This document shows, piece by piece, positions 37,501-59,187 of a stretch of DNA of 64,000 bases (its first letter is position 1; the number at the start of each line of letters is the position of its first letter). Under the pieces are notes generated by a model. That model saw only the letters and a program-made list of their open reading frames with translations, was not told the origin of the DNA and searched no databases. This DNA comes from Bdellovibrio bacteriovorus (GTDB taxonomy: Bacteria > Bdellovibrionota > Bdellovibrionia > Bdellovibrionales > Bdellovibrionaceae). The stretch is from positions 487,545-551,544 of the forward strand of contig NZ_LUKD01000008.1 in assembly GCF_001592745.1 (NCBI RefSeq), written 5' to 3'. Position numbers and translations under genes: made by a program.

Positions 37501-40500
37501 ACACTGCCGTTTGCATAAGCTGAAATATTATCTGTGATATTTGTCGTGTGTACGACTTCCGAAGCCGAATAACCGGCAGCCACCGTGCAATCTGTCGAAG
37601 CGGCAGGACCTATTTTATATTTGTATCCAACGACGCCGCTTCCATTGACGTCGATATTAAGTGCATATTTCGCGCTGGAGCCGGTAGGTTGCCCCGAAAG
37701 AGTTGCCGTCGGAGGAGTGTTATCAAAAACGATAGAGGCGGAACTCGCCATGGCGCTGACGTTTCCAGCCGCATCTTTCACCCAGGCATAAAGTGTTTTT
37801 GATTCATTCACGGTGCTGACCGTAAACGTCGCAGGTAAAGTCGTTCCTGCCGTCCATGTGCAGGAAGCCACCGCCGTATTATTTTCCATAATACAATAAG
37901 ATGCCGGCGAGCCACTGACAGAAGATGTAATAGCAAAGCTTGTGCTGTTCGTCGGAGACGCATTTGTCACCGTGAAAGCAGTGATACCAGGAGCCGTCGT
38001 ATCGATGACGATGTTTTTATTTGTTCCTAAAGATCCCGCCGCCGCAGTTCCTGGCAATGTTAATGTTGCATTGTTAGAAGCAGCGTCTCGAATAGTTGCA
38101 GAACTAATGGTCAAAGAGTTCGTTGCTGTATAGTTCAGATCAGCGACCGTATCAGTGGCTTGAACTGTGTAGTTAAAGATCAATGTATTCGTTCCCGTAC
38201 CTGACGCATAAGAGGCAGAGCGAGCGGGCGTTGTGTTCAGAGCGAGCAGTGGAGTTCCGGTGACATTCACGTTTTCAGAGAAAGTAACACGAACATCAAT
38301 AACGTCACCAACGGTGTAAGCGCCGTTTGCTTTATTAGATGTGACATTGGTGATCGTAGGAACCGCCGTGTCTATCACTAAGGCACTGGAACAAGCCGAC
38401 GTGACGGAATTCCCCGCAGAGTCTAGTGAAATGACTTGATAAGAGTAAGTCGTGCCATTTGCGCCTGTGAAGCTCGAAGTTGTAGCCGTACTTGTTTCGG
38501 TATTTTCTGTGCCCGTATAAGTATTGCAAGTAGCTCCTGTATAAAGACGCACTTTCTGTGAAGCCACGTCCGTGCTTGTCGACTTCGTCCATTGCGCTAC
38601 GATAGCCGTGGTATTAGTTGGAGTCGTCTGCTGCCATGTAAGTGAAGAGGCGCTTACTGGAGCCGTGATATCGTAAGTTACAGTCGCGTCCGTGAAAGTG
38701 GAGGCGTTATTGGTATTTCCTGCCGGATCACTGATTTTTCCTGCTGTAAGAGATGGAATCAAAGTTCCAGCTGTCGTGATCGCTGTTGCTTGCAAAGTCC
38801 AAGTCACGTTATCTGACGTAGCTAAACTCCAGGTGATGCCTGACGCTGTTCCGCCTTGAGTGATATCCGATATAGCGAAAGTGCTTGGATTGATAGCTTC
38901 CGTAAATACAATCGTGAATTCGACAGGCAAAGTGTTCGTAGGATCGTCTTGTCCTGCTTTTTGATTGATAGTCAATGAAGGCTTCGTTGTCTCATAGGTG
39001 ATTTGATTATCCGTGCTCGTGCTTGCCGTATTGTTGTTGCCAGCAACATCGGTAAGCTTATTCGCCGTGATAGAAGGAATTAAAGTTCCCGCGCCGGTGA
39101 TTGCAGTCGCTTTTAAAGACCACGTGATGTTGTCTGAAGTTGTTAGACTCCAGGTAATTCCCGTTGCTGTGCCGGACTGAGTGATATCCGCAACGACAAA
39201 GTTAGTGATGGCTTCGCTTGCAACAATAGTGAATTCAACAGGCAAAGTATTCGTTGGATCTGCTTGCCCTGATTTTTGATTGATGGTCAGAGTAGGGGAC
39301 GTCAGATCTTGAGTCCAAGTGACACTCGTAGCAGAGGTCAGAGCTTGTTCAACACTCGCAGAGTTTTTACCAAGGACACAGACCTTGATATCCGTATTGC
39401 CTAGCCCACTGACCGAGTCTGTGATGTTTGTCGCGACAGGAATGTCAGCCGAATACCCCGTTGCGACGGCACAGTTCGTAGAAGCAGCGGCACCCACTTT
39501 GTAGCGATAAGTCTGAACATCTGCGCCTGCAACATCAATGTTCAAGGTCGTCTGATTTGTTTTTCCAGTAGGCTGGCCCGTGATCGTGGCGATAACGGCC
39601 GATGTATTGACGTTGAAAATAAAATCGTTGTTCGTCGCGGTTATGGTATTTCCGACCGCATCGCGCGAAGAAACTCGAACTGTGTACTGAGTGCCGTTGT
39701 TTAAAGTGCAACCTGTAAATGTCGAAGAGGTTCCCGCAACAGTTTGTGCCGCACACACTGTTGCTGAGGCATCACTGTTTCTAATTTCAACGACATAGTC
39801 AGCACTTCCTGCAGACGTTTCCCAATGAGCTGTTGCCGTAGAACCATTTGTCAGCCATTCATCTTCAGTCGTGTCGGTGCCGCCAGTAACACCGCTGATA
39901 GCGAAAGCCCCTGGTGCCTGCGTATCAATCACAAGTGCCTTATTGGCGCCTAATGAACCTGTTGAACCAGGTGCAGGCAAACTCAAGACCATGTCGTTTC
40001 CGAAGCTGTCCTTGATGGCGGCTCCCGCTAAAGACAAAGCATTGATAGATTCATAATCAAGATCGCTGGAGTTGTCTCCGGCTTGAACGGTGTATTGGAA
40101 GATCAGGGTGTTGGTTCCTGAACCGCTCAAATAGGTCGCTGCTTGATCCGTCGAGCCCGTCTCTACTAAAAGTTCAGGCGTTCCGCCAGTCACAGTGACG
40201 TTTTCAGAAAACTGCACTGAAATTGGAATCACTTGACCTGCTTTATAAGATCCATTTGCCAGGGACGAAGTGACGGATAGAACCGAACCGGGAAGATCCA
40301 AAGTATATTGAACGGTAGCGGCCGTCGGTAAAGGATTAGCAGCTAAATCCGTTAAAGAAGTTTTTGCGGTCAGTGTACAAACTTCGCCGTTGGCCGGAGG
40401 AGTTGTCACCGTCAAATTCACAACGGCCGAAGTCGCACTCGAAAGTGAGGCACCAGCGATAGAAACGTTGGCACCGGCCGAACATGTGATACTCCAGTTT

Positions 40501-44654: not shown

Positions 44655-44798
44655 AGGGCCCCGTCGCGAAGCGATGGGTCTAACATAACTTTTCGAGTTC
44701 AGGCGAAATATAAATGAAGCAAGAGTAGTGAGAAAAGTTGGCGTGGGAACCCGAATTGGAAACGACCATGGTTTCCTCCGCCCAACGCAGTAGAGCTA

Positions 44799-45215
44799 GT
44801 GAATATCATTGAGTTTCCATTCGTGCAATCGCACCGCTCTGAGAGCTTCCTGCGGCAAAAGTACCTAAATGAACGCCTATCTCCAGCTGAAATCGGAGCT
44901 CAATGTTTTTCCTCCAAGCGCACGATCTTAGCTTGGCTTGAGCATTATAAAATTCCAGTTCGTCCTGAGGATATGCCCGAGAGAAGAGGATTGCGATTCG
45001 GAGAAAGACGAGAAAAAGGACGGATTATCAGAGATGAAAGAGAGCAAAGAGTGATCGCAAAAATGCACAAATTGCGATCTCGAGGATACAGCTATCCCCA
45101 AATAGTCGAGGTTCTGAACTCGATGGGGGTCAGGCCCAAATCAGGGAAAAAGTGGTACCTGAAGATAGTTTTTGAGGTCATAAATTCAAAAATCTCAAAA
45201 TTATCCAAAATTTAA
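44799..45215 (+). CDS. Double-HTH DNA-binding protein of the island
   Basis: The frame starts at GTG 44799 and gives 138 residues. An N-terminal HTH-like segment reads YLNERLSPAEIGAQCFSSKRTILAWLEHYKI. A C-terminal segment, MHKLRSRGYSYPQIVEVLNSMGVRPKSGKKW, resembles the recombinase-domain tail seen in large serine recombinases. No catalytic Ser domain is present. It may be an excision or copy-control factor, or a remnant of a recombinase. It is first in the island, close to the left repeat. Confidence 0.6.
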   Translation: MNIIEFPFVQSHRSESFLRQKYLNERLSPAEIGAQCFSSKRTILAWLEHYKIPVRPEDMPERRGLRFGERREKGRIIRDEREQRVIAKMHKLRSRGYSYPQIVEVLNSMGVRPKSGKKWYLKIVFEVINSKISKLSKI

Positions 45216-45248
45216 ATTCCAACGATTACGAATACTTAACTAAATAAG

Positions 45249-45354
45249 CAGTGAGGAATTGAGAATGTGCATCAAAAAAGAGTTTGATTTTGCCGAAATA
45301 CACGCTATCCTAAGGGTAAGTTGAAAACGAATGCACATTATCAACTACTCACTC
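45249..45354. repeat. Long imperfect inverted repeat
   Basis: Arms at 45249-45272 and 45331-45354 pair over about 24 bases with few mismatches; the best part is TTGAgAATGTGCAT against ATGCACATTaTCAA. The 58-base interior has no gene. It is the only notable feature of the gene-free stretch 45216-45566 besides the small ORF at 45369. It could be a replication, transfer or excision site or a structured RNA. Confidence 0.5.
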
Positions 45355-45368
45355 AAGAAAGGAGGCAA

Positions 45369-45425
45369 ATGAGAGCAGAGTTAGAAATTGTAGCTACGGT
45401 TACCAGTCTTGGCCGACATCAATAA
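45369..45425 (+). CDS. Possible 18-residue leader peptide
   Basis: ATG 45369 follows AAAGGAGGCAA, the strongest ribosome-binding site in the island. It opens an 18-codon frame (MRAELEIVATVTSLGRHQ). It lies between the inverted repeat and the first operon gene. It could be a leader peptide; it is too short to judge by codon use. Confidence 0.3.
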   Translation: MRAELEIVATVTSLGRHQ

Positions 45426-45566
45426 CCGCAGCCGCATAAATCCCCCAAAGAGGATTCACAAATAAATGTAACACAGCTTTGAGAGTTTGGCCAGTGTTCT
45501 GTCCAAACCCTTCTTTGGAGATAAATGAAACCAGTTTTAACAATCTTTAAAGAAGGAGATTTTTTT

Positions 45567-45875
45567 ATGAGACAGATTTACGAGGTTCCCAAAGAGGAAA
45601 TCTCAAAGGTTCTAAGCGCAATTGGAAGATCTCAGATGGCACATCGACTTGCGATTTATAAAGCAGTCGGTGGAAAGCTAAAACCGTCATTTAATTATGT
45701 GATGGATCATCTAGAAAAAATGGGAGCAATCATTGAAGTCGAGCGTGACTTTTATGCGCTCCATCCGGTCTTCCGTGAAATGGATGATGAGGCAGGATTA
45801 AAAGCCTGCTTTCCGATGAAGGTGAAAAAATTAAAGTCAGACAAGGCGGAGGCTGTATGGATCAGAAGTCATTGA
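45567..45875 (+). CDS. Small wHTH-like protein at the head of the RM operon
   Basis: ATG 45567 follows AAGGAGA; an in-frame ATG at 45525 with its own GGAG site would add 14 residues. The 102-residue product is soluble. VLSAIGRSQMAHRLAIYKAVGGKLKPSFNYVMDHLEKMGAI looks like a winged-HTH helix set, and IEVERDFYALHP could be the wing. It overlaps the DUF2130 gene by 19 bases. It may regulate the operon. The assignment is tentative. Confidence 0.65.
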   Translation: MRQIYEVPKEEISKVLSAIGRSQMAHRLAIYKAVGGKLKPSFNYVMDHLEKMGAIIEVERDFYALHPVFREMDDEAGLKACFPMKVKKLKSDKAEAVWIRSH

Positions 45876-47134
45876 TCGCATCGCTTTCGATCCCTTGCCC
45901 TGAGTGCGGCTACTTGCTGCATACAGAGGATGCCGTTCGAAAACACATTCAAAGCGAACTCGAAAAATCCTCTAAGGACCTGCAAGTGAAAATGCAAACT
46001 CAGGAGAAGCTATTTAAGGAGAAGCAAGCCGAACTTGATAAACAAAAGGCTGATATTGATTCCTTAGTAGAAAAGCAACTGAAGGCTAAGCTTCAGTTAG
46101 TCCAGCAAACGGCATCTAAAGAAGCAAAAGAAAAGATCAGTCTTGAGCTTGAGGATCTGAAAAATCAGATCAATGAAAAGCAAGAGGCGCTTCAGAAGGC
46201 TCAGGCATCAGAGCTTGAGTTGCGAAAGGCTGCTCGTGAAGTTCAGGAGAAGGAGAAGAATCTTGAACTTGAAGTGCAGCGCCGAGTGCAAGACCAAGTT
46301 GATTCAGAAAAGCAGGCAATGCATGAATCGATGGGTCAGGAATTTCAGCTTAAGCTTCTTGAAAAAGAAAAGCAGATCCGAGATATGCAGGTGAAGCTGG
46401 AAGAGGCTAAGCGTGCTTCTCTTCAGGGCTCTCAGCAAAACCAAGGGGAAGCTGTTGAAGATGATATCGAAAGCCAGCTGAAGGCTCGATACCCTACGGA
46501 CACCTTCGATCCAGTTCCGAAGGGAGCAGAAGGTGCAGACCTCGTTCATTCAGTGCGCAACTCCTCGGGCCAAGTGGTTGGCACGACAGTTATCGAGCTG
46601 AAAAATACGAGAACCTTTCCTGGGGACTGTATTCAGAAGCTTGCGCGTGACCAGCGTGTACTTGGTGCTGACGCGGCAATCCTGATTACGAAAACTCTAC
46701 CAAAAGATGCGCCTCCAATTAGTATCATCGATGGCGTTTTCGTTGTTTCGCTATCATTAGCGGTTCCATTCATTTCGATCATCAGAAAGTCGATTGAAGA
46801 ATTGTCGTACGCTCGTGCGACGACTCAGGGGCAAGACGAGAAAATGAAGTTGATCTACTCGTATCTTACGGGTCCGGCTTTTAAGCAAAAGATCACTTCG
46901 ATCGTGAATGCTTTTGAGACCTTGATGGAGCAACATGAAGGCGAAAAGAAGTACTTCAAGAAAATGTGGGCTTCTCGCGAAAAGATGTTGGAGCAAGTAA
47001 TTGATTCGGCAACTGGGATGTACGGCGACATCGAAGGTATCGCTGGGCGTATTTTGCCTGAGGTAAAAGCTCTTGCTCTGCCAGAGGTGAAAGAAGTTGA
47101 AACAGTTTTGATTGATGGGAGGGGCGATCAGTGA
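45857..47134 (+). CDS. DUF2130-type coiled-coil protein with nuclease-like domain
   Basis: The 425-residue product begins with a short zinc-ribbon-like segment (IPCPECGYLLHTEDAVRKHI). Residues about 30-200 are a long coiled coil rich in E, K and Q. The C-terminal domain (about 205-400) has DTFDPVPKGAEGADLVHSV, then GTTVIELKNTRTF. This D then E-x-K arrangement is typical of a PD-(D/E)XK fold and is the pattern of DUF2130. GGAGG precedes the ATG. DUF2130 genes are often near restriction genes; its biochemical role here is not established. It lies 18 bases before the half-HsdS gene. Confidence 0.78.
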   Translation: MDQKSLIASLSIPCPECGYLLHTEDAVRKHIQSELEKSSKDLQVKMQTQEKLFKEKQAELDKQKADIDSLVEKQLKAKLQLVQQTASKEAKEKISLELEDLKNQINEKQEALQKAQASELELRKAAREVQEKEKNLELEVQRRVQDQVDSEKQAMHESMGQEFQLKLLEKEKQIRDMQVKLEEAKRASLQGSQQNQGEAVEDDIESQLKARYPTDTFDPVPKGAEGADLVHSVRNSSGQVVGTTVIELKNTRTFPGDCIQKLARDQRVLGADAAILITKTLPKDAPPISIIDGVFVVSLSLAVPFISIIRKSIEELSYARATTQGQDEKMKLIYSYLTGPAFKQKITSIVNAFETLMEQHEGEKKYFKKMWASREKMLEQVIDSATGMYGDIEGIAGRILPEVKALALPEVKEVETVLIDGRGDQ

Positions 47135-47152
47135 TCGCCTTCCAGGTGGTAT

Positions 47153-47881
47153 ATGAGATTTAATAATTGTGAGTACGTTAAAATAAACAAAATCGCCGAC
47201 CTCAGAGCTGGATATCAACTGCGAGACCGCGTTGACCCAGATCCAAAGGGAAAGATTAAGTTTATTCAAGTTGGAGATGCGAATCGCGAGACACATCAAA
47301 TTGATCTTGCGAAGAGCGATCTTATTACCATCGACAAGGCCATCGAATACGGAAAATACGAACTGCACGGACATGAAGTACTTTTCTTATCGAAAGGTAG
47401 TAAGCCAGGGGCATTTACTGTCCCTGGCGTTTCGGACTGGGTTAGTCGAAGTTGTCATGTGATTCCGATGTCGCATTTCTTGATTTTAGAATCTGACAAA
47501 TCACGAACCTACCCGCCGTACCTTGTGTGGGCTCTGAACCAAAAGTTCATGGAGCCAGCAATCAAGGCAAGCATGAAAGGTTCGGGAATTCCGTTTATCG
47601 CTAAGAGTGACTTTATGGATATTAAAATACCGATCCCAAGCATTGAGGTGCAAAAGAAAATCGCCGAATTGAGTGCCCTTCGTACAAACGAGTTAATCCT
47701 GGCTAAGAAGCGCGATGGTTTAATGAATCAGCTTCTCGAAGCTCTTCTTTTTGGGCAGCTCGAAGGCGACGCGGCCGACGCGGCCGACGCCAGCGTCGCG
47801 AAGCAAAAGTTATTGGATGAATACGAAAAATATAAAGACATTTCCCCTGAGGATTTTCAAAAAGAATTGAGGAAGCTATGA
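47153..47881 (+). CDS. Half-length type I specificity subunit (single TRD)
   Basis: The 242-residue product has one target-recognition domain (about 1-165; KINKIADLRAGYQLRDR, FIQVGDAN and FLSKGSKPGAFTVPG). A conserved helical region follows (IPIPSIEVQKKIAEL...MNQLLEALLFGQLEG). Full HsdS proteins have two TRDs and about 400 residues, so this is a half subunit, which in known cases can dimerise. A short Ala/Asp insert (GDAADAADAS) near 205 comes from a palindromic repeat also found at 55032. The stop overlaps hsdM as ATGA. Confidence 0.8.
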   Translation: MRFNNCEYVKINKIADLRAGYQLRDRVDPDPKGKIKFIQVGDANRETHQIDLAKSDLITIDKAIEYGKYELHGHEVLFLSKGSKPGAFTVPGVSDWVSRSCHVIPMSHFLILESDKSRTYPPYLVWALNQKFMEPAIKASMKGSGIPFIAKSDFMDIKIPIPSIEVQKKIAELSALRTNELILAKKRDGLMNQLLEALLFGQLEGDAADAADASVAKQKLLDEYEKYKDISPEDFQKELRKL

Positions 47882-49398
47882 GCAATACAAAATCATTAGA
47901 CCAAGACGCCGAATTGAAGAAAAAACTTTGGTCGGCATGTGACACGTTCAGAAACGTGATGGATTCAAATCAATATAAGGACTACATCCTCGCATTTCTT
48001 TTCATCAAGTATATTTCTGACATATACGAAGAAAAAGTCACTGAACTTCGAAAGAAGTTTAAGAACGATGAGGATATGGTCAAGCGTCGTCTTGAGCGTG
48101 AAAGGTTTGTTCTCCATGACAAAGCTACATTCGCGTGGATTTTCGAGAACCGAAATAAAGATAATATTGGCGCTATTATTAATTCGGTACTTCATGAAAT
48201 CGAAGAACTGAATAAAGTTAAACTGAACAATGTTTTTCGTGGAATAGATTTTAACAGCGAGCAAAATCTTGGTAAGCCAAAGGACAAATTGGATCGCTTA
48301 CGCCATCTGATTAATGACTTTAAAGACCTCGATCTGAAACCCTATCTGCACAACGCTGATGTTATTGGTAATGCATACGAGTATTTGATTGAAAAATTCG
48401 CGGCTGATGCCGGGAAAAAGGGTGGAGAATTTTATACTCCTCCGGAAGTCGCTACTCTTCTTGCAAAGCTTGTAGAGGCGAAACCTGGAAACACGATTTA
48501 CGATCCCACCTGCGGTTCAGGATCGTTGTTGATTAAAGCGGCTAAGGAAGTTGGGAGCAACGACTTCTTCATTTATGGTCAAGAAGTGAACGGAGCTACT
48601 TGGTCCTTAGCTCGAATGAATATGTTTCTACACGGAATTGAGCAGTCTGATATTCAGTGGGGCGATACCATAAAATCACCAGCATTTATCGAAAAGGATT
48701 CGATAAAAAAGTTTGATATCGTTATTGCAAATCCACCTTTCAGTAAAGACAAGTGGTGGGGCGCGCCGACAGAAAAGGGTAAGGAAACAGAGAAGAAAGC
48801 CGAAAACGATGACTACAAACGTTTTTGGCGTGGTGTTCCGCCCACCTCAAGGGGCGACTGGGCGTTTATAAGTCATATGATTGAAAGTCTTTTGCCAGGT
48901 GGTACTTGTGGAGTGGTTGTGCCGCATGGGGTTCTATTTCGAGGTGATGCCGAGGGAAGAATACGTAAAGCCGTAATCGAGGAAAATCTTATTCATGCCG
49001 TTGTTGGCCTGCCGCCAAACTTATTTTATGGCGCGGGAATTTCGGCAGCCCTGTTAATTTTCAAAAAAAATCGCAAGCAAAAAGACATTCTCTTCATTGA
49101 CTCCAGTAAGCATTTTCTTGAGGGGAAAAAGCAGAATAAGCTTCGTGACGAAGATATCGGACGAATTTTTGAGACATTTAAAAAGCGAAAAACAATTGAT
49201 AAATTCTCTTACCTCGCCTCGCTCGACGAAGTTCAGAAGAATGATTTCAATTTAAACATTGGCCTCTATATTGATGGGTCAGAGGAAATCGCCAGCATAG
49301 ATATTCGCGCTGTACAGAATGATATTGAGGCAATCGAGTCTGAGCTCAGCCAAGTACGTGCAAAGATGAAAAAATATCTTAAGGAACTTGAGATATGA
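47878..49398 (+). CDS. hsdM: Type I restriction-modification DNA methyltransferase subunit
   Basis: The 506-residue product has the N-terminal helical HsdM domain (about 10-160). SAM-binding motif I is at 209-216 (DPTCGSGS) and the catalytic NPPF motif of N6-adenine methylases at 285-288. GGEFYTPPEVATLLAKL near 182 is a family hallmark. It methylates adenine in the target chosen by HsdS. ATGA overlaps join it to the half-HsdS gene before and the full hsdS gene after. Confidence 0.97.
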   Translation: MSNTKSLDQDAELKKKLWSACDTFRNVMDSNQYKDYILAFLFIKYISDIYEEKVTELRKKFKNDEDMVKRRLERERFVLHDKATFAWIFENRNKDNIGAIINSVLHEIEELNKVKLNNVFRGIDFNSEQNLGKPKDKLDRLRHLINDFKDLDLKPYLHNADVIGNAYEYLIEKFAADAGKKGGEFYTPPEVATLLAKLVEAKPGNTIYDPTCGSGSLLIKAAKEVGSNDFFIYGQEVNGATWSLARMNMFLHGIEQSDIQWGDTIKSPAFIEKDSIKKFDIVIANPPFSKDKWWGAPTEKGKETEKKAENDDYKRFWRGVPPTSRGDWAFISHMIESLLPGGTCGVVVPHGVLFRGDAEGRIRKAVIEENLIHAVVGLPPNLFYGAGISAALLIFKKNRKQKDILFIDSSKHFLEGKKQNKLRDEDIGRIFETFKKRKTIDKFSYLASLDEVQKNDFNLNIGLYIDGSEEIASIDIRAVQNDIEAIESELSQVRAKMKKYLKELEI

Positions 49399-50549
49399 AA
49401 ATGCAAACGCAAATGAAACGTTTAGATGAACTGGCTACTGTTGAAAGAGGTAAATTTTCAGCTCGCCCTAGGAATGATCCAAAATACTATGGGGGGGACA
49501 TTCCTTTTGTTCAAACTGGAGATATCGTTACTAGTGGCGGGATATTAAAATCATACACTCAGACATTGAATGCTGAGGGACTTAAGGTAAGTAAAATATT
49601 TCCCAAGGGATCTATTTTGGTCACAATTGCAGCAAACATAGGGAATTCGGCGCTTACAACGTTTGATACGGCTTGCCCTGACAGTGTTGTCGGGCTTCGG
49701 CCAAAAGCGGGAATCGATTCAAAGTGGTTAAACTATGCAATTCAATCACGACGAGAAGAGCTAGACGCAAAAGCAACAAAAGGCGCGCAAAAAAATATCA
49801 ACTTGGAAGTTCTAAGGCCTTTGCTTATCCCAACCCCCAATGCTGAAGAACAGAAGTATATCGGTGAATGTCTGTTCAGCTGGGACAAGTCAATTGAACT
49901 CGAAACAGCTCTTTTGGAACAATATAAATTGGAGTTGGACGGGTTTATTGAGAATCTTATTGGAACTGAAAACATGACAAGCTTGAAGGAGATATGCCAA
50001 GAGATACGAGACGGCACGCATGCTTCACACATCGATGTCGCTCAAGGCATTCCACTTCTAAGCGCAAAGGATATCGTTGATCGAAAGATCATGATTCCGA
50101 CTGACGCTCGAAAAATCAATTCGGCAGATTTCGATCAAATTCATAAGAAATTTGTTCTTTCCAATGGCGATTTGTTACTTACGATTGTTGGAACAATTGG
50201 TCGCGTAGCTGTCGTATCGAATTATGATCGGAGTTATACATTTCAACGAAGCGTGGCATATTTGAGATTTAAGAAAGACTTCTCATCCGAGTTTTACTCC
50301 TATGTATTCGAGTCTCGATATTTTCAGAAAGAGTTGAAGCGTAGGGCAACTCAGTCAGCGCAGCCAGGAGTGTATTTGGGTAGTCTGTCTGAAATCTTGG
50401 TGCCTTCGCCAAGCAAAGAGAACCAGGAAAGGATTACGAGATTTCTTAGCACTCTTGATCAGTCCATCCGTCTCACCCGAGAAAAGATCCGATTGCTAAA
50501 GCTTCAAAAGCAGGGACTAATGCAGAAGCTTTTTGGAGACCTTCAATGA
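49395..50549 (+). CDS. hsdS: Type I restriction-modification specificity subunit (two TRDs)
   Basis: The 384-residue product has two target-recognition domains, starting near residue 5 (LDELATVERGKFSARPRND) and near 195 (LKEICQEIRDGTHASHID). Each is followed by a conserved helix (LLIPTPNAEEQKYIGECL; ILVPSPSKENQERITRFL). Each half sets one part of a bipartite recognition sequence. It overlaps hsdM and hsdR as ATGA. This is a complete subunit, so the half subunit upstream is an addition and not a replacement. Confidence 0.95.
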   Translation: MKMQTQMKRLDELATVERGKFSARPRNDPKYYGGDIPFVQTGDIVTSGGILKSYTQTLNAEGLKVSKIFPKGSILVTIAANIGNSALTTFDTACPDSVVGLRPKAGIDSKWLNYAIQSRREELDAKATKGAQKNINLEVLRPLLIPTPNAEEQKYIGECLFSWDKSIELETALLEQYKLELDGFIENLIGTENMTSLKEICQEIRDGTHASHIDVAQGIPLLSAKDIVDRKIMIPTDARKINSADFDQIHKKFVLSNGDLLLTIVGTIGRVAVVSNYDRSYTFQRSVAYLRFKKDFSSEFYSYVFESRYFQKELKRRATQSAQPGVYLGSLSEILVPSPSKENQERITRFLSTLDQSIRLTREKIRLLKLQKQGLMQKLFGDLQ

Positions 50550-53500
50550 CAACTAGACGAGCCATTTTCCGCGAAGACGAAAGCTCGCAATTGCCAGCGC
50601 TTCAACTCCTACAAAATATGGGTTGGATTTATTTAACTCCGGAAGAGGCATTGGCGGAGAGGAAAGGAAATCCTAGAAGCGTCATTTTAGAGGGAATCTT
50701 AGAAGAAAGACTTAGAAGTCGTGAATTGAATACTATTCTAGTAAGTGGAGAAGAGTATGAGTTTGGCGACGCAAATATAGCAAATGCGATTCACGAAATT
50801 AAACGTGTGCCTTTCGAAGGCTTACAGACCACGGCCGAGAAAATTTTCGATCTAATTACTCTAGGAAAAAGCTGTACTGTAACGATTAATAATGATCGTA
50901 AGAGTTACGATCTGAAATATATTGATTGGTCGAACGTGGCGAACAACGTTTACCATGTTACGGAAGAATTCATTGTCGAATCTCACACTGGAAATGGCAC
51001 TAAAAAGATTCCTGATCTTGTACTCTTTATTAATGGCATTCCTATTGTAATTATCGAATGTAAAAGGAGTGATTATAAAGATCCCGTAGAGGAAGCAGTT
51101 TCACAACATATCCGCAATCAAGAAACTTCCAACATTCCAAATCTTTACGTCTATTCACAACTCTTACTTGCAGTTAGCCCATTTAACGTTCGCGAGAAAA
51201 ATCGATTTTGCCTGTATGCTACTACAGGTACACCTCGGGTTTATTGGTACCCATGGATCGAAGATGAATCTAAGTTGCTGGCAAAGGAACTTGAAATTCT
51301 AGTACATAAGCCATTGTCGACCAAAGAAAAGGATCGATTATTTGGAGATCGCTTCAGAAACATCCGCGCCTACTTTGACGATTTGGAGAAGCACCCTCGC
51401 CAGGTAACAGATCAAGATAAAATGATTTTTAGTCTCTGTCGGAAGCAAAGAGTGCTCGAACTAGTTAAAAAGTTCATCTTATTCGACGGCGGCGTCAAAA
51501 AGATAGCCCGATACCAACAGTATTTTCTTGTTAATCAATCGGCAGAGAGAATTTGTAGCGTGAAGCCAGGAGAAAAGCGGCCCAACGGAGTTGGCTGGCA
51601 TACACAAGGCAGCGGTAAGTCTCTCTCTATGGTGATGCTTGCAAAGACGCTTGCGATGGATGATCGAATCAAGGAACCGAAGATTGTATTAATCACGGAT
51701 CGAATTGACCTTGATGACCAGATTTTCAGAACATTCCAAAATTGTGGAGTCGAAGTTCGACAAGCTTCAAGTGGACAGGACTTGATTGACTCGCTTAAAG
51801 ATTCTAAGGCCGGTATCATTGCGACAACAATCTTCAAGTTCGATTCCGTAATTAATGCCAAAACTGATCCTTTTGAATCAACCGATATTATTCTGCTAGT
51901 GGACGAAGCCCATCGATCCCAATATGGAGAATCCAACTCGAAGGTTCACAAGGTTTTCCCAAATGCTTGCTTTATCGGTTATACCGGGACTCCATTAACA
52001 GAAAAAGAACGTCATACGATGGAGAAGTTTGGTCCGATAATTGGACGCCCTTACACCAACAGAGATGCTCTTCGGGATAACGCTGTTGTTCCTCTTCTCT
52101 ATGAAGGAAGAATGGTCCCTCAGTCTGTTAATCAGGATCTCATTGACCGCTGGTTTGAAAGACTAACTAGTGGCTTGTCAGAGGCTGAAAAGGCAGATCT
52201 TAAGAAAAAATATAACCGACGTGATCAGCTTGCGAAGACTGACCAACGAATCTTTATGATAGCTGCTGACGTCTCGGAACATTTCTATAGGAACTGGAAA
52301 AACACCGATGGTGGACTTGGATTCAAGGGTCTCCTAGCTGTCGACTCGATTGCCTCGGCTATGAAATATCGAGACTACTTCAGAGAAATTGGTGAGGTTG
52401 AGGTTGAAGTCGTAATTTCTAAAACGAATGATCGCCGTGGTCATAGTGAAGTTGGTGAAGAGCAAACAGCATTGCAGAAATACGAAGAGTACATCAAGAA
52501 AAACTGGGGCGATCACAAAAAATTTGAACGAGACATAAAAAAGCGATTCGACAGTGATCAAGGACCTGACATCTTAATCGTCGTCTGGAAGTTACTTACG
52601 GGGTTCGACGTTCAAAGATCTACCGTTTTATACGTTGATAAAAATCTATCAGAACACACACTACTTCAGGCAACGGCTCGGGTAAATAGAACTTTTCCAA
52701 AGAAAGATTTTGGATACATTGTTGATTACCACGGGAACCTCGATAACTTCATAGATGCAATCAAACAATACGATGACCTTGCAGCTAAACTCACAGCAAC
52801 AGAGGGTCCTACTGAAGAGGCTGAACTTAAGAGCGCAATTCATGATATTCAAGAGCGAATAAAACTACTTCCGCAACATTACGCCGACTTGATAGATTTG
52901 TTTGGCGGGGTGAAAAACAAAAGAGATGTCAAAGAGTATGAAAATGCTCTTTGGGAACCAGAAAAGAGAGAAGAGTTTTACGAAAAGCTTGGAACTTTCG
53001 GTCGAACGCTACATTTAGCGCTATCGTCGTTCGACTATTATTCTAAAGCTCCAATATCAGAAGTTGATAAATACAAAGAAGAACTCCGCTTCTTCAATTC
53101 TTTGAAGTTCGACCTAAAAATGATTTTTCAGGAACGAATCGATTACAGAGATTATGAGCCTAAGATTGAAAAGATATTGAACGATCATGTTATGGCTAAA
53201 GGAGTTGAAACAATTGTTGAGCCAGTTGCTATCTATGATTTGGAATTCGGTAAACAGTTCGAAGGCAAAGATGCAACAACGCAAGCTCTGACAATCCTGA
53301 ACTCGACAAATAGATACATTTCCGAAAATCTCGAACGCGATAAAGCATTTTACGAGAGATTCTCTGCGCTGATTGAAGAAACTCTTGAGGACTACCGTAA
53401 GGGTCGCCTTTTAGAGAAGCAACTACTTGAGAAAGCGACTGACATCAAAGAAAAGGTTCTCACGCGAACAGGAGATGATACTCCCGAAGTTTTGAGGGGA

Positions 53501-53788
53501 AATGAATCTGCTATGGCTTTCTTTGGAATCTTGAAGTCGAACATGGGTGCAGACAAAGTAGAAGTCGACGTTTTGGCTAAGTGGGCTTCAGAGATTGATT
53601 CGATAGTTTCGAAAAATGTCGTCGTGGATTGGGTTCGTAACACGCATATCCAAAACAAGATAAAGAATCTTGTCGAAGACTATATTCTTGATGTTAAATC
53701 AAAACATAAATTATCTATTGATTTCGAGAAGATAGATAAAATTTTGGAGGAAGTGGTTAGGTCTGCGAAGTTAAATAGGAAAAAATGA
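50546..53788 (+). CDS. hsdR: Type I restriction endonuclease subunit
   Basis: The 1080-residue product has an N-terminal PD-(D/E)XK nuclease domain (IPDLVLFINGIPIVIIECK, about 152-170). SF2 translocase motifs follow: Walker A HTQGSGKS near 352-358, DEAH near 453-456, GYTGTP near 480 and motif VI QATARVNRTFPKKD near 705-718. A C-terminal helical domain completes it. No frameshift is present, so the restriction activity is probably intact. It overlaps hsdS (ATGA) and the YgjP gene (ATGA). Confidence 0.96.
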   Translation: MTTRRAIFREDESSQLPALQLLQNMGWIYLTPEEALAERKGNPRSVILEGILEERLRSRELNTILVSGEEYEFGDANIANAIHEIKRVPFEGLQTTAEKIFDLITLGKSCTVTINNDRKSYDLKYIDWSNVANNVYHVTEEFIVESHTGNGTKKIPDLVLFINGIPIVIIECKRSDYKDPVEEAVSQHIRNQETSNIPNLYVYSQLLLAVSPFNVREKNRFCLYATTGTPRVYWYPWIEDESKLLAKELEILVHKPLSTKEKDRLFGDRFRNIRAYFDDLEKHPRQVTDQDKMIFSLCRKQRVLELVKKFILFDGGVKKIARYQQYFLVNQSAERICSVKPGEKRPNGVGWHTQGSGKSLSMVMLAKTLAMDDRIKEPKIVLITDRIDLDDQIFRTFQNCGVEVRQASSGQDLIDSLKDSKAGIIATTIFKFDSVINAKTDPFESTDIILLVDEAHRSQYGESNSKVHKVFPNACFIGYTGTPLTEKERHTMEKFGPIIGRPYTNRDALRDNAVVPLLYEGRMVPQSVNQDLIDRWFERLTSGLSEAEKADLKKKYNRRDQLAKTDQRIFMIAADVSEHFYRNWKNTDGGLGFKGLLAVDSIASAMKYRDYFREIGEVEVEVVISKTNDRRGHSEVGEEQTALQKYEEYIKKNWGDHKKFERDIKKRFDSDQGPDILIVVWKLLTGFDVQRSTVLYVDKNLSEHTLLQATARVNRTFPKKDFGYIVDYHGNLDNFIDAIKQYDDLAAKLTATEGPTEEAELKSAIHDIQERIKLLPQHYADLIDLFGGVKNKRDVKEYENALWEPEKREEFYEKLGTFGRTLHLALSSFDYYSKAPISEVDKYKEELRFFNSLKFDLKMIFQERIDYRDYEPKIEKILNDHVMAKGVETIVEPVAIYDLEFGKQFEGKDATTQALTILNSTNRYISENLERDKAFYERFSALIEETLEDYRKGRLLEKQLLEKATDIKEKVLTRTGDDTPEVLRGNESAMAFFGILKSNMGADKVEVDVLAKWASEIDSIVSKNVVVDWVRNTHIQNKIKNLVEDYILDVKSKHKLSIDFEKIDKILEEVVRSAKLNRKK

Positions 53789-54501
53789 AGCAACAGGAAG
53801 TTTACAGCATCAAGGATGGACAACACGAGATTTCTTTTGAGTTGAAGTTTTCGACTCGGAAGACGTTAGGGATTTGTGTAACTCCAAAATCAGAAATCCA
53901 AGTAACCGCACCGGAAGGACTCTCGGTAGAACGGGTTTTGCACTCTGTGAAACGCCGTATGCCATGGATAATTAAACAGCTTAAGGGTCTAGAGAAAGTC
54001 CGATTCGTGGATTCAGTTCCGGAATACGAATCCGGTCAAACAATTCGTTTTCTCGGCAGAGACTACATGTTGAAGGTCCTACAGGTAGAAGCTTTCGAAG
54101 AAGAAGGCGTTTCACTCGAGCATTCAATACTCAAACTTACCATTCACAATCGAACTCAGAAAGATCGAATCAACTTGATGGTCGAAGAATGGTATCGGAA
54201 TGAAGCCTTACTATACCTAGGTAACAAGTTTGAAGCGCTATCACAGAAAGTCATAAAGTATGGACTGCCCAAGCCACAATACTACCTACGAAAAATGGAA
54301 AAGAGATGGGGAAGCTGTACACCTAATGGAGTCATCTACCTGAATCCAGAACTTATAAAGCTTCCGTCGCATTGTATCGAGTACGTAATCATGCACGAGC
54401 TTTGCCATTTAAAATATCCGGATCATTCCGCCGAGTATTACCACTTTCTAGAAACAGTCATGCCTGACTGGAAAATTCGTGAAAAGGATCTAAATTTATG
54501 A
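53785..54501 (+). CDS. YgjP/DUF45-type metallopeptidase
   Basis: The 238-residue product has the zinc site HELCH at 204-208, in the context YVIMHELCHLKYPDHSAEYY, and the preceding KRWGSCTPNGVIYLNP. Both are characteristic of the YgjP-like (SprT-related) family. These genes are frequently found beside type I restriction genes, but their role there is not established. ATGA overlaps link it to hsdR and to the pilin-like gene. Confidence 0.92.
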   Translation: MKQQEVYSIKDGQHEISFELKFSTRKTLGICVTPKSEIQVTAPEGLSVERVLHSVKRRMPWIIKQLKGLEKVRFVDSVPEYESGQTIRFLGRDYMLKVLQVEAFEEEGVSLEHSILKLTIHNRTQKDRINLMVEEWYRNEALLYLGNKFEALSQKVIKYGLPKPQYYLRKMEKRWGSCTPNGVIYLNPELIKLPSHCIEYVIMHELCHLKYPDHSAEYYHFLETVMPDWKIREKDLNL

Positions 54502-55007
54502 TCGAGAAAAAAGTAAAAGAGTCGGAGGTTGGCTTCAGCGCTTGGGAATTAGTAATCGTCGTAGCGATCATCGGTGTTCTTTTAATGATTGCTGGTCCCA
54601 ATTTTGTGAAGTTCCAAAGATCATTGAAGATGTCCGAAGAAAAAACACAGCTAGCGGCTGCCTATACTGCAATGCAAATTCAGAAGCTTGAAAAGGACCC
54701 AACGAAGGCCAATGAGATATTGAACCAGATGAGTTCCAAATATCCAGATTTCCGGGTGCCTGCAATCTTACCCGATGCCGATCCAAAACAATCAGCGTCG
54801 GACGTAAAAATTGGTATCTTAGAATATCGAATCGGTAAATTGGAAGAGACGATAAAAGATGCGTCAAGTAGCCAGCCGTCTTGGTGGATACTTCTCCTAG
54901 TAATTCCGGGGATTAGTGCGATGATGGGGAGACTTCTGAACCCATTGTTTGATTATCTTGGCGCCCACCTAAAATCCAAAGCGCAGGAAACCCTGGAGAA
55001 AAAGTAG
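54498..55007 (+). CDS. Two-TM protein with prepilin-like N-terminus, last gene of the RM operon
   Basis: The 169-residue product opens SEVG|FSAWELVIVVAIIGVLLM, which fits a type IV prepilin signal with Glu at +5. A charged, partly helical middle part follows, containing QMSSKYPDFRVPAI and a short coiled coil (ILEYRIGKLEETIKDA). A second TM segment is near 130-150 (SWWILLLVIPGISAMMG), with a Lys/Glu tail. Real pilins lack the second TM. The ATGA overlap with the YgjP gene makes it part of the RM operon. A membrane component of a defence system is possible but unproven. Confidence 0.78.
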   Translation: MIEKKVKESEVGFSAWELVIVVAIIGVLLMIAGPNFVKFQRSLKMSEEKTQLAAAYTAMQIQKLEKDPTKANEILNQMSSKYPDFRVPAILPDADPKQSASDVKIGILEYRIGKLEETIKDASSSQPSWWILLLVIPGISAMMGRLLNPLFDYLGAHLKSKAQETLEKK

Positions 55008-55021
55008 TTTTTCCGTTTTTG

Positions 55022-55083
55022 GGCGTCGCTCGCGACGCCAGCGTCGCCTGCTTTCGGAAAACCTTTCCGACGTACGGAAAGGT
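55022..55083. repeat. Nested palindromes after the RM operon
   Basis: GGCGTCGC-TC-GCGACGCC (55022-55039) overlaps GCGACGC-CA-GCGTCGC (55032-55047). A third hairpin, ACCTTTCCG-ACGTA-CGGAAAGGT, lies at 55061-55083. None has a T-run, so they are not standard terminators. The sequence GACGCCAGCGTCGC also occurs inside the half-HsdS gene near 47784. Confidence 0.6.
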
Positions 55084-55186
55084 ACTTTCCTTGTGTGTTC
55101 TTCGCAGATTCGGCAACTGGGTAGCCAGGGCTCACCAGAAAGCTTTCGGCGTTTTCCTGTGAGACCCATAATTGTGTCGAAATGTA

Positions 55187-57100
55187 ATGGCGTGTTTTAA
55201 TGGAAAAATGAGATCCCTCGTTTTACCTATTTTAAACCCTGCTGTTGCAAATCAGCCATTTTCTGAATGGGCAGCTCCACCTATTGAGCAGTTCCTTAAC
55301 TCTCTAGACGCCTCCGAACTTACAAAGTCCCACTATGCATCTCGCCTTCAACACAAAGAGGCGATTTTTTTCACCGATCCAAATGGTGATGCGTACGCGA
55401 GAGTGAACCTATCGGGCCAAAAGGAGGTTTGGCCCACTAACTCTGAAGAATTCCGGACTTGGTTAGGGTCACGATCTAACAAGGAGTTGGGTAAGTTTCC
55501 TACTGAGAGTGTAATGCGAGAGGTAGTTGCGCACGCGACCGGTAGAGCAAAGACTGACGGAATCCGAGAACTAGTTTTCAATCGAGTCGCTGGTCACGGG
55601 CGGAATATCTACATTGATATGGCAGATAAGCTTGGCCGTTTCATTGAAATAACTCCAAGTGGTTATGCCATGACTACCAGTTTGCCAAATGGAATCTGGT
55701 TCACGCGTTCTTCCAGTATGTTGCCTCTTCCTGCTCCTACACCGGGTGGAAGCATTAATGATCTTAGAAAGTATGTGAATCTGAAGGACGAAAAATCTTG
55801 GCAGATACTATTGTCTTGGATTCTTGGTAGCCTAAATCCTGAAGGACCTTTTCCTATTTTAATGATTAACGGTGGGCCTGGAACTGCAAAATCCACCTCC
55901 TCCGAATTTATTAAAAGGCTGATTGACCCTACAGGTGCCCCATTGCGAAACCTCACTAAAAATGAGCGCGACTTAATGATCCTCGGAAAGAATTCATGGA
56001 TCATGGGATTTGATAACGTAAGCTATATCAAAGATGATGTAAGTGACATGTTTTGCCGGATTGCAACCGGCGGTGGCTTTTCTACCCGTAAGTTGTACAC
56101 CGACGCAGGGGAAAAGATTTTTTTCATCAAGCGTCCCTGTCTCTTCAATGGGATTCCTGATTTTTTCTCTACACGATCAGATCTAATCGACAGATCTCTT
56201 CACGTAACGTTGAAACCAATCTTAGAGAAAGATCGAAAGCTTACGCGTGAGCTGGAAAGAGAGTTCCAAGCAGACCATGGCAAAATGCTCGGCGCGATTT
56301 GCCAGCTACTAAGTAAAATGCTCTTTGATTTGCCCTCACATTCATTACAGTCAAAGCCAAGAATGGCAGACTTTGCGCATTTCGTTTCTAGCGCGGAACC
56401 ACATTTAGGGTGGAGCACTGGAACTGTTGTTGATCTGATGAGAGAAAATCGAGCCGATGCTGAAAGCGTTCTGATTGAGAATTGCGTTTACTCTAGTCTC
56501 ATCATTGTACTTGCTTCAGAAAATTGGAGTGGATCTGCTTCCGAGCTCCTTGAGGAAATCGAGGATTCTCTTGGGGAGGATAGCCGAAGACTGAAAGGAG
56601 TGCCGCAGTCTGCATCAGCACTATCAAGTTCACTTAGGAGGTACGCGCCTGCATTTCGATCCGTTGGAGTTCACATTGACTGTGATGGCAAAACTTCGGG
56701 AGCAAACTCTCGTCGTTTCATATCTATCTCGTTAGACTCTTCAGCGGATATAGAAATGGTTAGGCAGGCACGTCAAGATTCTAGTCAGTACGCGCGCATG
56801 GAACTCAGAAAAAAGAAGCGAGCCGATCTTCGGGCAATTGCAAATAAGAAAAACAAGGAGCTTGTTCCGAATAGTACTGTGCTCAAGGATATTTTGATGA
56901 GTACTGCAAAAGTTGAATCTCAGACTTCCAAAGCTAATTCAGATGAGCGGAATTCGCCTGGGTCTCCGGAGTGTTTCGGACATGTACACGTGTTTGATCC
57001 CAGCTCTGAAAAGTGTGTTGAGTGTCCATATGAACATGCTTGCCTCAATGAAATCGAACGTGGAAATGCGAAAGATCCCCAACAGGCGGTTCTGCAATGA
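55187..57100 (+). CDS. SF3-like ATPase (replication protein of an integrative element)
   Basis: The start is uncertain: ATG 55187 or ATG 55208 (preceded by GGAAAA). The product is about 630-637 residues. The N-terminal half is unassigned. The ATPase core lies at about 200-350, with Walker A INGGPGTAKST, GFDNVSYI in the Walker B position and a sensor-like PCLFNGIPDFFSTRSDL. Proteins of this type serve as primase-helicase-like initiators in phages and satellites. The C-terminus has a Cys/His cluster (CFGHVHVFD...CVECPYEHAC), perhaps a zinc site. It is coupled by ATGA to the next small gene. Confidence 0.75.
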   Translation: MACFNGKMRSLVLPILNPAVANQPFSEWAAPPIEQFLNSLDASELTKSHYASRLQHKEAIFFTDPNGDAYARVNLSGQKEVWPTNSEEFRTWLGSRSNKELGKFPTESVMREVVAHATGRAKTDGIRELVFNRVAGHGRNIYIDMADKLGRFIEITPSGYAMTTSLPNGIWFTRSSSMLPLPAPTPGGSINDLRKYVNLKDEKSWQILLSWILGSLNPEGPFPILMINGGPGTAKSTSSEFIKRLIDPTGAPLRNLTKNERDLMILGKNSWIMGFDNVSYIKDDVSDMFCRIATGGGFSTRKLYTDAGEKIFFIKRPCLFNGIPDFFSTRSDLIDRSLHVTLKPILEKDRKLTRELEREFQADHGKMLGAICQLLSKMLFDLPSHSLQSKPRMADFAHFVSSAEPHLGWSTGTVVDLMRENRADAESVLIENCVYSSLIIVLASENWSGSASELLEEIEDSLGEDSRRLKGVPQSASALSSSLRRYAPAFRSVGVHIDCDGKTSGANSRRFISISLDSSADIEMVRQARQDSSQYARMELRKKKRADLRAIANKKNKELVPNSTVLKDILMSTAKVESQTSKANSDERNSPGSPECFGHVHVFDPSSEKCVECPYEHACLNEIERGNAKDPQQAVLQ

Positions 57101-57315
57101 ATTCGCTAAAAGGATATTTTGACCATTTGCATGAGCATAAGTTCCGGGGACAGGTGATCGTTACATTCAAAGATGGACAGATTTCTCTCCTCGAACAAAA
57201 GCAACAGTTCAAATCGATCCCGCAAGAGATTCTGAGTAGGAAGAACCGCCAAGAATCTCATGTCGTACCAGAAGGTCCGCATGAGTTCCCAAAGCAGTTC
57301 TCTAAAAAGATGTAA
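57097..57315 (+). CDS. Small hypothetical protein, DUF2292-like segment
   Basis: The 72-residue product overlaps the ATPase gene by ATGA. Its first 40 residues (GQVIVTFKDGQISLLEQKQQFK) resemble the beta-rich DUF2292 pattern of helix, G-x-V-x-V-x-x-x-D-G-x-V and E. The tail is basic. Function is unknown. Confidence 0.6.
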   Translation: MNSLKGYFDHLHEHKFRGQVIVTFKDGQISLLEQKQQFKSIPQEILSRKNRQESHVVPEGPHEFPKQFSKKM

Positions 57316-57562
57316 CTCGTGTGAGGGGATTTTTCCCCTCACATCATTCTATCGAAAGGCAAATCGGTTCGACAGTAATTGCAAGGCGTGTATAGCTCGA
57401 AAAAAAGCGTCATGGTATAAAATGAAGTGCAAAAAGAATAGAACTCAGACGCAAAACCTTGAGGTATTGCAGGTGAATATTCCCGACAAAAAATATTTGT
57501 CGGCACAGATCAGAAATTTGATCAAGGGAATGAATTTTGATGTCGACGGAAGTGAAAACTAA
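57281..57562 (+). CDS. Small zinc-finger protein
   Basis: The start is placed at ATG 57281; an in-frame ATG at 57260 adds seven residues. The 93-residue product has KRCNSCEGIFPLTSFYRKAN, then NCKACIARKKASW. This gives CxxC-x(n)-CxxC, the zinc-knuckle arrangement common in small phage and island proteins next to HNH or recombinase genes. It overlaps both neighbours, including the recombinase start by 23 bases. Confidence 0.7.
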   Translation: MSSQSSSLKRCNSCEGIFPLTSFYRKANRFDSNCKACIARKKASWYKMKCKKNRTQTQNLEVLQVNIPDKKYLSAQIRNLIKGMNFDVDGSEN

Positions 57563-59168
57563 AAAGAGGATCGCAATTTACACCCGCGTCAGCACACTGA
57601 ACCAGGTTGTTGAAAATGGAAGTTTAGAGCAGCAGGAAAAAATTTGCCGTGACTATCTTAGATCTTTATCAGTGCGAGACGGAGTCGACTATGAAGTGGT
57701 GAAAGTATACACAGATGCTGGAATCAGTGGAGCTACTGCGGCTGCTCGACCGGCATATTTAGAAATGCTTTCTGACTGTGACAGAGGAAAGATAGACGGT
57801 ATTACAACCTTTGAACTTACTCGGCTGTCTCGATCAGTAAACGATCTTGAAAAACTGACGAGTAGATGTCGGAAAAACAAAGTGGCCCTTCTGATAAAAG
57901 GGTTCGATATGGACCCAAATACGTTAATGGGCGAAATGCTCTTCCGGTTTTTAGCAGTACTTTCTGAATTCGAGAGAAAGCTCACTGCAAATAGAGTGAA
58001 AGAAAGTACGCGAAGTAGAATGCTTAACCTTGGCCACGTAAATGGCGGAAGAATACCTCTCGGATTCGATCGAGATCCCGAGCGAAAGGGTTGCTGGAAG
58101 GCGAACCCGGCGGAGTTAAGACAAGTCGAACATATAATGAACGTGTTTCTCGAAACAGGATCATTTAAGGCAACTTTAGTTGAAATCAAAAGACTCGGAA
58201 TTACCAATAAGGATGGGAAGGATTTTAGATTTACTTCTCTGAAGACGCTTCTCACAAATTACAGGTATCTGGGAAAACAGCTCGTGACTTGCGGTCCCAA
58301 CGACGAAGATAAAAAGTGGGCCTCTCTTCATCATGGCTGCGTAATCTCCGAAAATCTGTATCAGCAAGTCCAAGAGAAAATTGCTGAGATTGATGGTCGT
58401 AAAAATCTAAATCGTTTGAGTGCTAGAATATATCCTCTCACGGGTCTACTTCAGTATGAAGACGGCTCATTGTTTTGTGGCCAGAGTGGAACTTCAAGAA
58501 ATGGGTCTAAGCATTTTTACTATTGGAATAAGAAGCACAAAGTGCGAGTGGAAGCTGACATCTTTGATAAAGCTATTTTGGATTTCCTAAAAGGCGTCCT
58601 AGTAAGCGACAAAGAATTAGAAAAGTTGGTCGGTACAATCAACGGTACTTGTAAAAGCAGAATGGAACTGATTACACAAAGAATCAGAGAGATTCGAAAG
58701 GATATTCAAGTTCTGTCTGATGAAGATGAGAAGATGTTAGCTGAATTGCGAAGTTTTAATAAATCTAACGGAGCGGCGAAAGCTCTTCAGTGGTTGGAAC
58801 AGCAAACTTCCAAAAGCGAAGAGCAAAAAAAAGTTTTGGGCCTGGAACTGGAAGAGCTTCTGCGAGAAAAAGAACAGCTAGAGGCCTCGGGTGCGAACCT
58901 TGCTGGGGTTCGTGGGGTTTTAGCAAAGTTCTGTGAACTGGTTTCCAAAGCCGACCCTGTTCGACAACGAGAGTTCTATCGCCAAATTTTCAAGAAGATC
59001 GAATTTTCGAAATACAACAAAGTCAAAATTGAGTGGTTCTTGCCTGGAGGTCCCCAAAGGGGAGGAGATTATTCTTTCACCGAGGAAACAGAGGTTGCTT
59101 CCGGTTTAAATTGGCGTTCCCAAGGGGATTTGAACCCCTGTATCCTCCGTGAAAGGGAGGTGTCCTAG
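57540..59168 (+). CDS. Large serine recombinase (integrase of the island)
   Basis: ATG 57540 gives 542 residues. The resolvase catalytic domain (about 10-160) has IYTRVSTLNQ with the nucleophile Ser, then ITTFELTRLSRS and FERKLTANRVKEST. The recombinase domain (about 165-260) follows. A Cys-poor zinc-ribbon-like region (about 300-350) and a coiled coil (about 370-460) come next. The last 19 residues are read from the antisense of tRNA-Glu, so the C-terminus is set by the integration site. It probably catalyses integration and excision of the island. Confidence 0.9.
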   Translation: MSTEVKTKKRIAIYTRVSTLNQVVENGSLEQQEKICRDYLRSLSVRDGVDYEVVKVYTDAGISGATAAARPAYLEMLSDCDRGKIDGITTFELTRLSRSVNDLEKLTSRCRKNKVALLIKGFDMDPNTLMGEMLFRFLAVLSEFERKLTANRVKESTRSRMLNLGHVNGGRIPLGFDRDPERKGCWKANPAELRQVEHIMNVFLETGSFKATLVEIKRLGITNKDGKDFRFTSLKTLLTNYRYLGKQLVTCGPNDEDKKWASLHHGCVISENLYQQVQEKIAEIDGRKNLNRLSARIYPLTGLLQYEDGSLFCGQSGTSRNGSKHFYYWNKKHKVRVEADIFDKAILDFLKGVLVSDKELEKLVGTINGTCKSRMELITQRIREIRKDIQVLSDEDEKMLAELRSFNKSNGAAKALQWLEQQTSKSEEQKKVLGLELEELLREKEQLEASGANLAGVRGVLAKFCELVSKADPVRQREFYRQIFKKIEFSKYNKVKIEWFLPGGPQRGGDYSFTEETEVASGLNWRSQGDLNPCILREREVS

Positions 59169-59187
59169 GCCCCTAGACGATGGGAAC
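59112..59187 (-). tRNA. tRNA-Glu (anticodon TTC)
   Basis: A 76-base tRNA with acceptor GTTCCCA/TGGGAAC, discriminator G and encoded CCA. The anticodon loop is CTTTCAC and the T loop GTTCAAATC. The island meets its 3' end, and the 13-bp repeat covers the acceptor 3' strand. Confidence 0.97.

Follow-up and report, generated by a model that had tools for sequence, protein, structure and literature searches.

An operon of eight genes in a 64,000-nucleotide stretch of Bdellovibrio bacteriovorus DNA (NZ_LUKD01000008.1, positions 487,545 to 551,544; the whole stretch is called the window below) encodes a type I restriction-modification (RM) system together with a half-HsdS, a specificity-subunit-like protein with a single target recognition domain (TRD). 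The locus was assigned to a subfamily of type I systems characterised by a dedicated half-HsdS, for which self-control of the operon is the best-supported role. Because the sequence identity of the half-HsdS tracks that of HsdM, and because the half-HsdS proteins form a clade separate from the HsdS halves, the half-HsdS is taken to be inherited with HsdM without exchange with HsdS. Taken together with palindromes found in the promoters of many related operons, the evidence tips slightly towards a reading in which HsdM and half-HsdS form a methylase/repressor of fixed specificity that autoregulates the operon, with the full HsdS providing the variable specificity of restriction.

The operon and the conserved core of its subfamily

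All eight open reading frames (ORFs) of the operon were confirmed, and they follow one another on the plus strand in this order:

45525/45567-45875, +: ORF2, small protein, family not assigned; an ORF absent from related loci
45857-47134, +: DUF2130 protein, coiled coil and PD-(D/E)XK-like domain, accessory (Pfam E 1.7e-49)
47153-47881, +: half-HsdS, single TRD and helix, proposed operator-reading subunit (Pfam Methylase_S 2.7e-11)
47878-49398, +: HsdM, EcoR124-like N6-adenine methyltransferase subunit (Pfam N6_Mtase and HsdM_N)
49395-50549, +: HsdS, two-TRD specificity subunit, swapped between systems (two Pfam Methylase_S stretches)
50546-53788, +: HsdR, restriction and translocation subunit (Pfam HSDR_N and SWI2_SNF2)
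53785-54501, +: YgjP-like zinc metallopeptidase (M48/SprT-like), conserved downstream of HsdR (Pfam E 6.7e-53)
54498-55007, +: pilin-like protein with two transmembrane segments, in this genome only, not core (prepilin N-terminus matches only)

A 4-nt ATGA overlap is present at every junction between the last six genes, from half-HsdS to the pilin-like protein. The end of ORF2 overlaps the start of the DUF2130 gene by 19 nt, and a gap of 18 nt separates the latter from half-HsdS. This arrangement, an ATGA-coupled series with DUF2130 and a small ORF ahead of it, had been described in a first-pass annotation of the sequence and was confirmed by the ORFs and by Pfam. The type I gene set is complete, with HsdM, a two-TRD HsdS and HsdR in one operon and with intact motifs (NPPF in HsdM; D...ECK and DEAH in HsdR); HELCH in YgjP and ELK in the DUF2130 protein are intact as well. 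The HsdM of the window aligns end to end with that of EcoR124II, and the three Hsd subunits are those of a type I RM system of the IC (EcoR124-like) kind. The MADS system was not matched at the NCBIfam cut-offs (MAD2 reached 68 of 720 bits and MAD5 at most 56 of 400).

To place the operon among its relatives, an HsdM alignment was used to scan 84,980 species genomes, and the 80 closest loci were retained. A half-HsdS of 180-265 residues stands upstream of HsdM in 68 of these 80, a count that is not a prevalence, as the loci are the nearest relatives of a half-HsdS-bearing alignment. The loci with a half-HsdS come from Bacteroidota, Pseudomonadota, Bacillota, Planctomycetota, Verrucomicrobiota, Spirochaetota and other phyla, and the gap from half-HsdS to HsdM is mostly between -17 and +20. 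YgjP follows HsdR in 55 of the 64 systems with HsdR in view, mostly with gaps of -4 or -1. Within the phylum of the window, a half-HsdS precedes HsdM at ten loci, the window included, and HsdR and YgjP are adjacent at 25 of about 43 HsdR loci. The conserved core of the broad subfamily is therefore half-HsdS, HsdM, HsdS, HsdR and YgjP, and the window has the same layout, with half-HsdS directly before HsdM and YgjP directly after HsdR. The tight coupling had been read as a sign of a real unit; this holds for these five genes, which recur together in Bdellovibrionota, Bacteroidota, Pseudomonadota, Planctomycetota and Bacillota, but not for the DUF2130 and pilin-like genes, which are no part of it.

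The subfamily differs from other type IC systems in its dedicated half-HsdS before HsdM, in YgjP after HsdR and in the cargo carried between HsdM, HsdS and HsdR. The two cargo slots, HsdM-HsdS and HsdS-HsdR, are variable and hold RhuM, HAD, Shedu, Abi, NucS-like, Fic, SLATT, AAA, PDDEXK and TIGR04141 proteins and kinases; such variable genes were met on plasmids and in Escherichia coli PM22. These slots (L136-L227 and L258 among the loci read) gather defence-like cargo and are a possible source of new defence genes.

Inheritance of the half-HsdS

The pairwise identity of half-HsdS proteins from 66 systems was compared with that of their HsdM proteins. The Mantel r was 0.77 for half-HsdS versus 0.24 and 0.28 for the two halves of HsdS; restricted to the 37 systems in which HsdR and YgjP are present as well, the comparison gave 0.76 for half-HsdS and 0.77 for YgjP. 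Where HsdM proteins are 90-98% identical, half-HsdS proteins are on average 75% identical, and the HsdS halves are 24-26% identical, the level of unrelated TRDs. In a tree of the 66 half-HsdS proteins and 132 HsdS halves, all 66 half-HsdS proteins lie on one side of a branch with a support of 100, and within any one locus the identity between half-HsdS and the HsdS halves does not exceed 32.5%.

Other readings of the half-HsdS were considered. That it is a decayed HsdS was ruled out, as open half-HsdS genes of 180-265 residues are present in 78 systems and are monophyletic. That it is a shuffled specificity cassette was ruled out as well, since half-HsdS diverges in step with HsdM. Exchange as in phase-variable hsdS genes is not supported, given the monophyly and the low identity to the HsdS halves of the same locus. 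Phase-variable multi-hsdS type I loci (PMC7394358) likewise have more than one hsdS gene per locus; however, their extra hsdS genes are exchanged by inversion, whereas the half-HsdS gene is co-directional, lies upstream of hsdM and shows no exchange with HsdS.

As modelled, the half-HsdS of the window (predicted local distance difference test score, pLDDT, 90) consists of one TRD and a long helix. Its nearest solved structures are Esub1 and S subunits. Esub1 (PDB 8VSR, 8VSQ), the best structural match, has the same single-TRD HsdS-like fold but is only about 17% identical, and it was solved in complex with Prx.

Promoter palindromes and the proposed role of the half-HsdS

Alignment of the upstream regions within close groups of loci revealed bipartite palindromes around a TTGACA. 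GTA-N7-TAC was tested formally, and 41 sites were found in the 200 bp before 75 half-HsdS genes, versus 0-6 with any other spacer between 0 and 14. In 50 loci that had not been viewed before and were held out, 25 sites were counted versus 0-5 (Poisson p about 7e-18, with the caveat of non-independence among related loci), and plasmid loci fetched later gave eight sites at spacer 7 versus 0-1. Within the last 100 bp there are 39 sites, where 1.4 are expected. The other ORFs of the same loci, taken as a control, gave 2.1 per 75, and no site was found before 22 type I loci without a half-HsdS. The motif occurs at 27 of the 75 loci, 14 of which have two sites, as a rule one near -25 and one at -73 to -100, spaced 54-71 bp apart. 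This class extends over about nine phyla, although single sites may be due to chance.

Other branches carry other half-sites. The clade of E. coli PM22, Acinetobacter junii, Aeromonas, Proteus and Methylobacter has GCATCA-N7-TGA(TGC), with 12 sites at N7 versus 0-1 at other spacers and none at N7 in the other 74 loci, and its Acetobacteraceae branch has GCACCA-N7-TGGTGC and GCATGA-N7-TCATGC; the latter is the promoter palindrome on plasmid pGOX1 of Gluconobacter oxydans 621H. A Bacteroidota half-HsdS clade has G[AT]A-N6-TAC, with 11 sites at N6 versus 0-3. The half-sites thus vary with the half-HsdS clade, and the geometry stays similar, with a spacing typical of type I enzymes. In a second genome of the phylum, G042, two perfect TTCATTA-N6-TAATGAA palindromes, 65 bp apart, were found before a DUF2130 gene (L044, positions 2593-2612 and 2658-2677 of the reverse complement), with which the controlled operon of that genome may begin. 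The motif strings occur in no paper of the open-access literature searched, and the half-HsdS or its autoregulation is likewise undescribed there, most subscription journals lying outside the search.

According to the proposed mechanism, HsdM, the two-TRD HsdS and HsdR would make up an ordinary restriction enzyme, the specificity of which would change when HsdS is exchanged. A second, symmetric complex, of the same "Type 1 1/2" design as M.AhdI, would consist of HsdM and two copies of half-HsdS. It would read a palindromic bipartite site, often in two copies, around -35 of its own promoter, and its binding to the operator, or methylation of it, would tune expression as HsdM builds up, for example on at entry into a new host and damped later. 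The full HsdS is hardly the reader, because it is swapped between systems and the operators are not. YgjP would probably act on HsdR, as a safety protease.

Complexes of this kind have precedents. Half-S dimers on HsdM are known from type IC derivatives, EcoR124I-delta-50 reading GAA-N7-TTC and EcoDXXI-delta-C reading TCA-N8-TGA, and the natural M.AhdI (2M+2S) recognises GAC-N5-GTC (PMC3874165). Counted on the sequences, GAC-N5-GTC, GAA-N7-TTC and GTA-N7-TAC can each put 7 bp between the target adenines. The putative half-HsdS/HsdM complex has in common with M.AhdI an HsdM-like M subunit, a single-TRD S subunit and a predicted bipartite palindromic target with this adenine spacing. It differs in that HsdM would serve half-HsdS as well as a full HsdS and HsdR, and in that the palindromes lie in the promoter of the operon. 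Engineered half-S/HsdM complexes, also with HsdR, are active and both restrict and modify DNA (PMC6158711). A half-HsdS/HsdM pair with no adjacent HsdS or HsdR was also observed on a Bacteroides finegoldii plasmid (L220, 7474-9530), with GTA-N7-TAC at -194; it is a possible free-standing Type 1 1/2 methyltransferase.

That operons of this kind can be autoregulated is known from the RRDM defence island (RptR, hsdM, hsdS, darTG, hsdR and an M48 peptidase), in which RptR, encoded before hsdM, was described in 2025 as a dedicated type I operon repressor (PMC12255303). The subfamily resembles RRDM in the M48/YgjP-type peptidase after hsdR and in the cargo between hsdS and hsdR, and the first gene of RRDM encodes a palindrome-binding autoregulator. 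However, this first gene encodes the 79-residue RptR and that of the subfamily a half-HsdS, and the operator sequences are unlike. An rptR gene is not found as first gene in the window, where ORF2, DUF2130 and half-HsdS precede HsdM.

Several observations weigh against the half-HsdS/HsdM complex as reader of the palindromes. Of the 75 half-HsdS loci, 48 are without GTA-N7-TAC and many are without any recognised operator. The motif classes other than GTA-N7-TAC were identified post hoc and rest on the spacer controls. The window itself has no operator of the recognised classes. Its only candidate is a weak one, which could be due to chance:

45271-45288: single palindrome ATCAAA-N6-TTTGAT, upstream of ORF2

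Moreover, relatives in E. coli without a half-HsdS bear other palindromes right before hsdM, so that a different reader is possible, and the co-inheritance of half-HsdS and HsdM leaves the tree silent on which of the two is the reader or whether an unlinked factor is. Any promoter in the window is separated from half-HsdS by ORF2 and DUF2130. An inverted-repeat scan without a preset half-site gave only a diffuse excess, and half-HsdS loci without GTA-N7-TAC showed no general excess at N7.

The E. coli relatives just mentioned have the order hsdM-hsdS-yecA-hsdR-M48 peptidase, without a half-HsdS in the two loci read, and an HsdM match is present in 590 of 5426 genomes. In strains H15 (L259) and SLK172 (L260) the palindromes ACGATG...CATCGT and CGATGCAAAGTTTTGCATCG lie just upstream of hsdM at 8974.

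The strongest of the alternatives, though an unlikely one, is that half-HsdS provides a second fixed specificity for defence. HsdM, half-HsdS and HsdR would then methylate and restrict the palindrome genome-wide beside the HsdS site, and the promoter sites would be a by-product or a secondary control. The engineered complexes with HsdR cited above restrict and modify DNA, and the modelled fold of half-HsdS is an intact TRD with its helix. However, a defence specificity is expected to shuffle as HsdS does, and half-HsdS does not; nor does defence alone explain why the sites cluster in the promoter of the operon. A somewhat weaker candidate is regulation through assembly, in which half-HsdS would compete with HsdS for HsdM and limit the amount of active enzyme, with the palindromes bound by an unlinked transcription factor. 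The half-HsdS keeps the TRD-plus-helix form that, judging from known HsdS structures, contacts HsdM in HsdS, and the palindromes before hsdM in E. coli would suit such a factor. This is countered by the half-sites, which change with the half-HsdS clade at a spacing that stays typical of type I enzymes, and by the spread of the sites over so many phyla with the RM genes as the only constant linked genes.

In its wider form, the favoured reading is of a phylum-spanning type I subfamily that would carry a second methyltransferase of its own, made up of HsdM and the dedicated half-HsdS and aimed mainly at the paired operators in its own promoter, so that the specificities for defence and for self-control would be split between two subunits sharing one catalytic partner. 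We consider the chances of this to be about even. Control of type I systems is mostly ascribed to degradation of HsdR by ClpXP, and it has long been asked how such a system can enter a new cell and not kill it. If the wider reading is true, a simple self-timing switch, travelling with plasmids and islands, would be provided by a methyltransferase that has its catalytic subunit in common with the restriction enzyme and that reads its own promoter. This would also account for many short "extra" HsdS annotations, and it predicts N6-methyladenine motifs at GTA-N7-TAC and TCA-N7-TGA.

Accessory genes and the island carrying the operon

The operon in the window has gained a DUF2130 gene in front and a pilin-like gene behind. 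ORF2 had been called winged helix-turn-helix-like, for which database searches returned no supporting family match; it is not conserved among related loci. The DUF2130 protein has the invariant residues D...ExK and CPxC, and its predicted structure gave only weak matches, among them PD-(D/E)XK nucleases (SPARDA, DdmD, MspJI); nothing on its function was found in the open-access literature searched. In the 368 genomes of the phylum, DUF2130 is above the cut-off at 13 places and adjoins a type I RM system at only two of them, the window and G042, where it stands beside half-HsdS, HsdM, HsdS, HsdR and YgjP. Its other contexts are helicase-nuclease, HNH, N6-methyltransferase/AAA and unrelated genes. 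Together with its occurrence at none of the 80 related HsdM loci, this rules it out as a core gene. In the locus L046 (G030, contig 29, 6814-14045), DUF2130 lies between a 1041-residue protein with an N6-methylase domain and a 752-residue AAA ATPase, a different defence-like cluster.

In the pilin-like protein, a PilA-like N-terminus, with about 48% identity over 55 residues to pilins from the genus, is joined to a second membrane segment. A search of 59 related genomes gave no full-length relative, and the protein, full-length in this genome only, was ruled out as a core component. The genes downstream of YgjP vary between loci. Among the same 59 genomes, only four have an above-cut-off HsdR, of which three also have DUF2130.

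The first-pass annotation had proposed that the seven to eight genes could form a composite defence system and had suggested looking for their conserved co-occurrence. Such co-occurrence was found for half-HsdS, HsdMSR and YgjP, whereas DUF2130 and the two-transmembrane protein vary freely around HsdMSR. It is thus highly improbable that HsdMSR works together with the DUF2130 nuclease, the protease and the membrane protein, despite the translational coupling of the pilin-like gene, the presence of DUF2130 beside an operon of this kind in G042, where it lies behind the paired palindromes, and the higher frequency of HsdR in genomes with DUF2130 (5/15; Fisher p 0.013).

The operon is cargo of a serine-integrase island inserted at a tRNA-Glu gene:

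44738-59118: integrative island of about 14.4 kb, with the crossover core TTGGCGT at 44738-44744 and 59112-59118
57537-59168, +: large serine recombinase, the island integrase, at the end of the island (Pfam Resolvase and Recombinase)
59112-59187, -: tRNA-Glu (TTC), with the attachment site at its 3' end

The empty site is seen in a relative (G001, right flank 94% identical), which reads GAAAAGTTGGCGTTCCCAAGG without the island and where SelO, SemiSWEET and the left flank lead into tRNA-Glu. A 13-nt repeat at 44630 was ruled out as the left attachment site, as a relative has it too, next to its empty site; the core is the TTGGCGT at 44738. Near the island, a predicted secreted repeat protein of 2579 residues is encoded at 34581-42320 on the minus strand.

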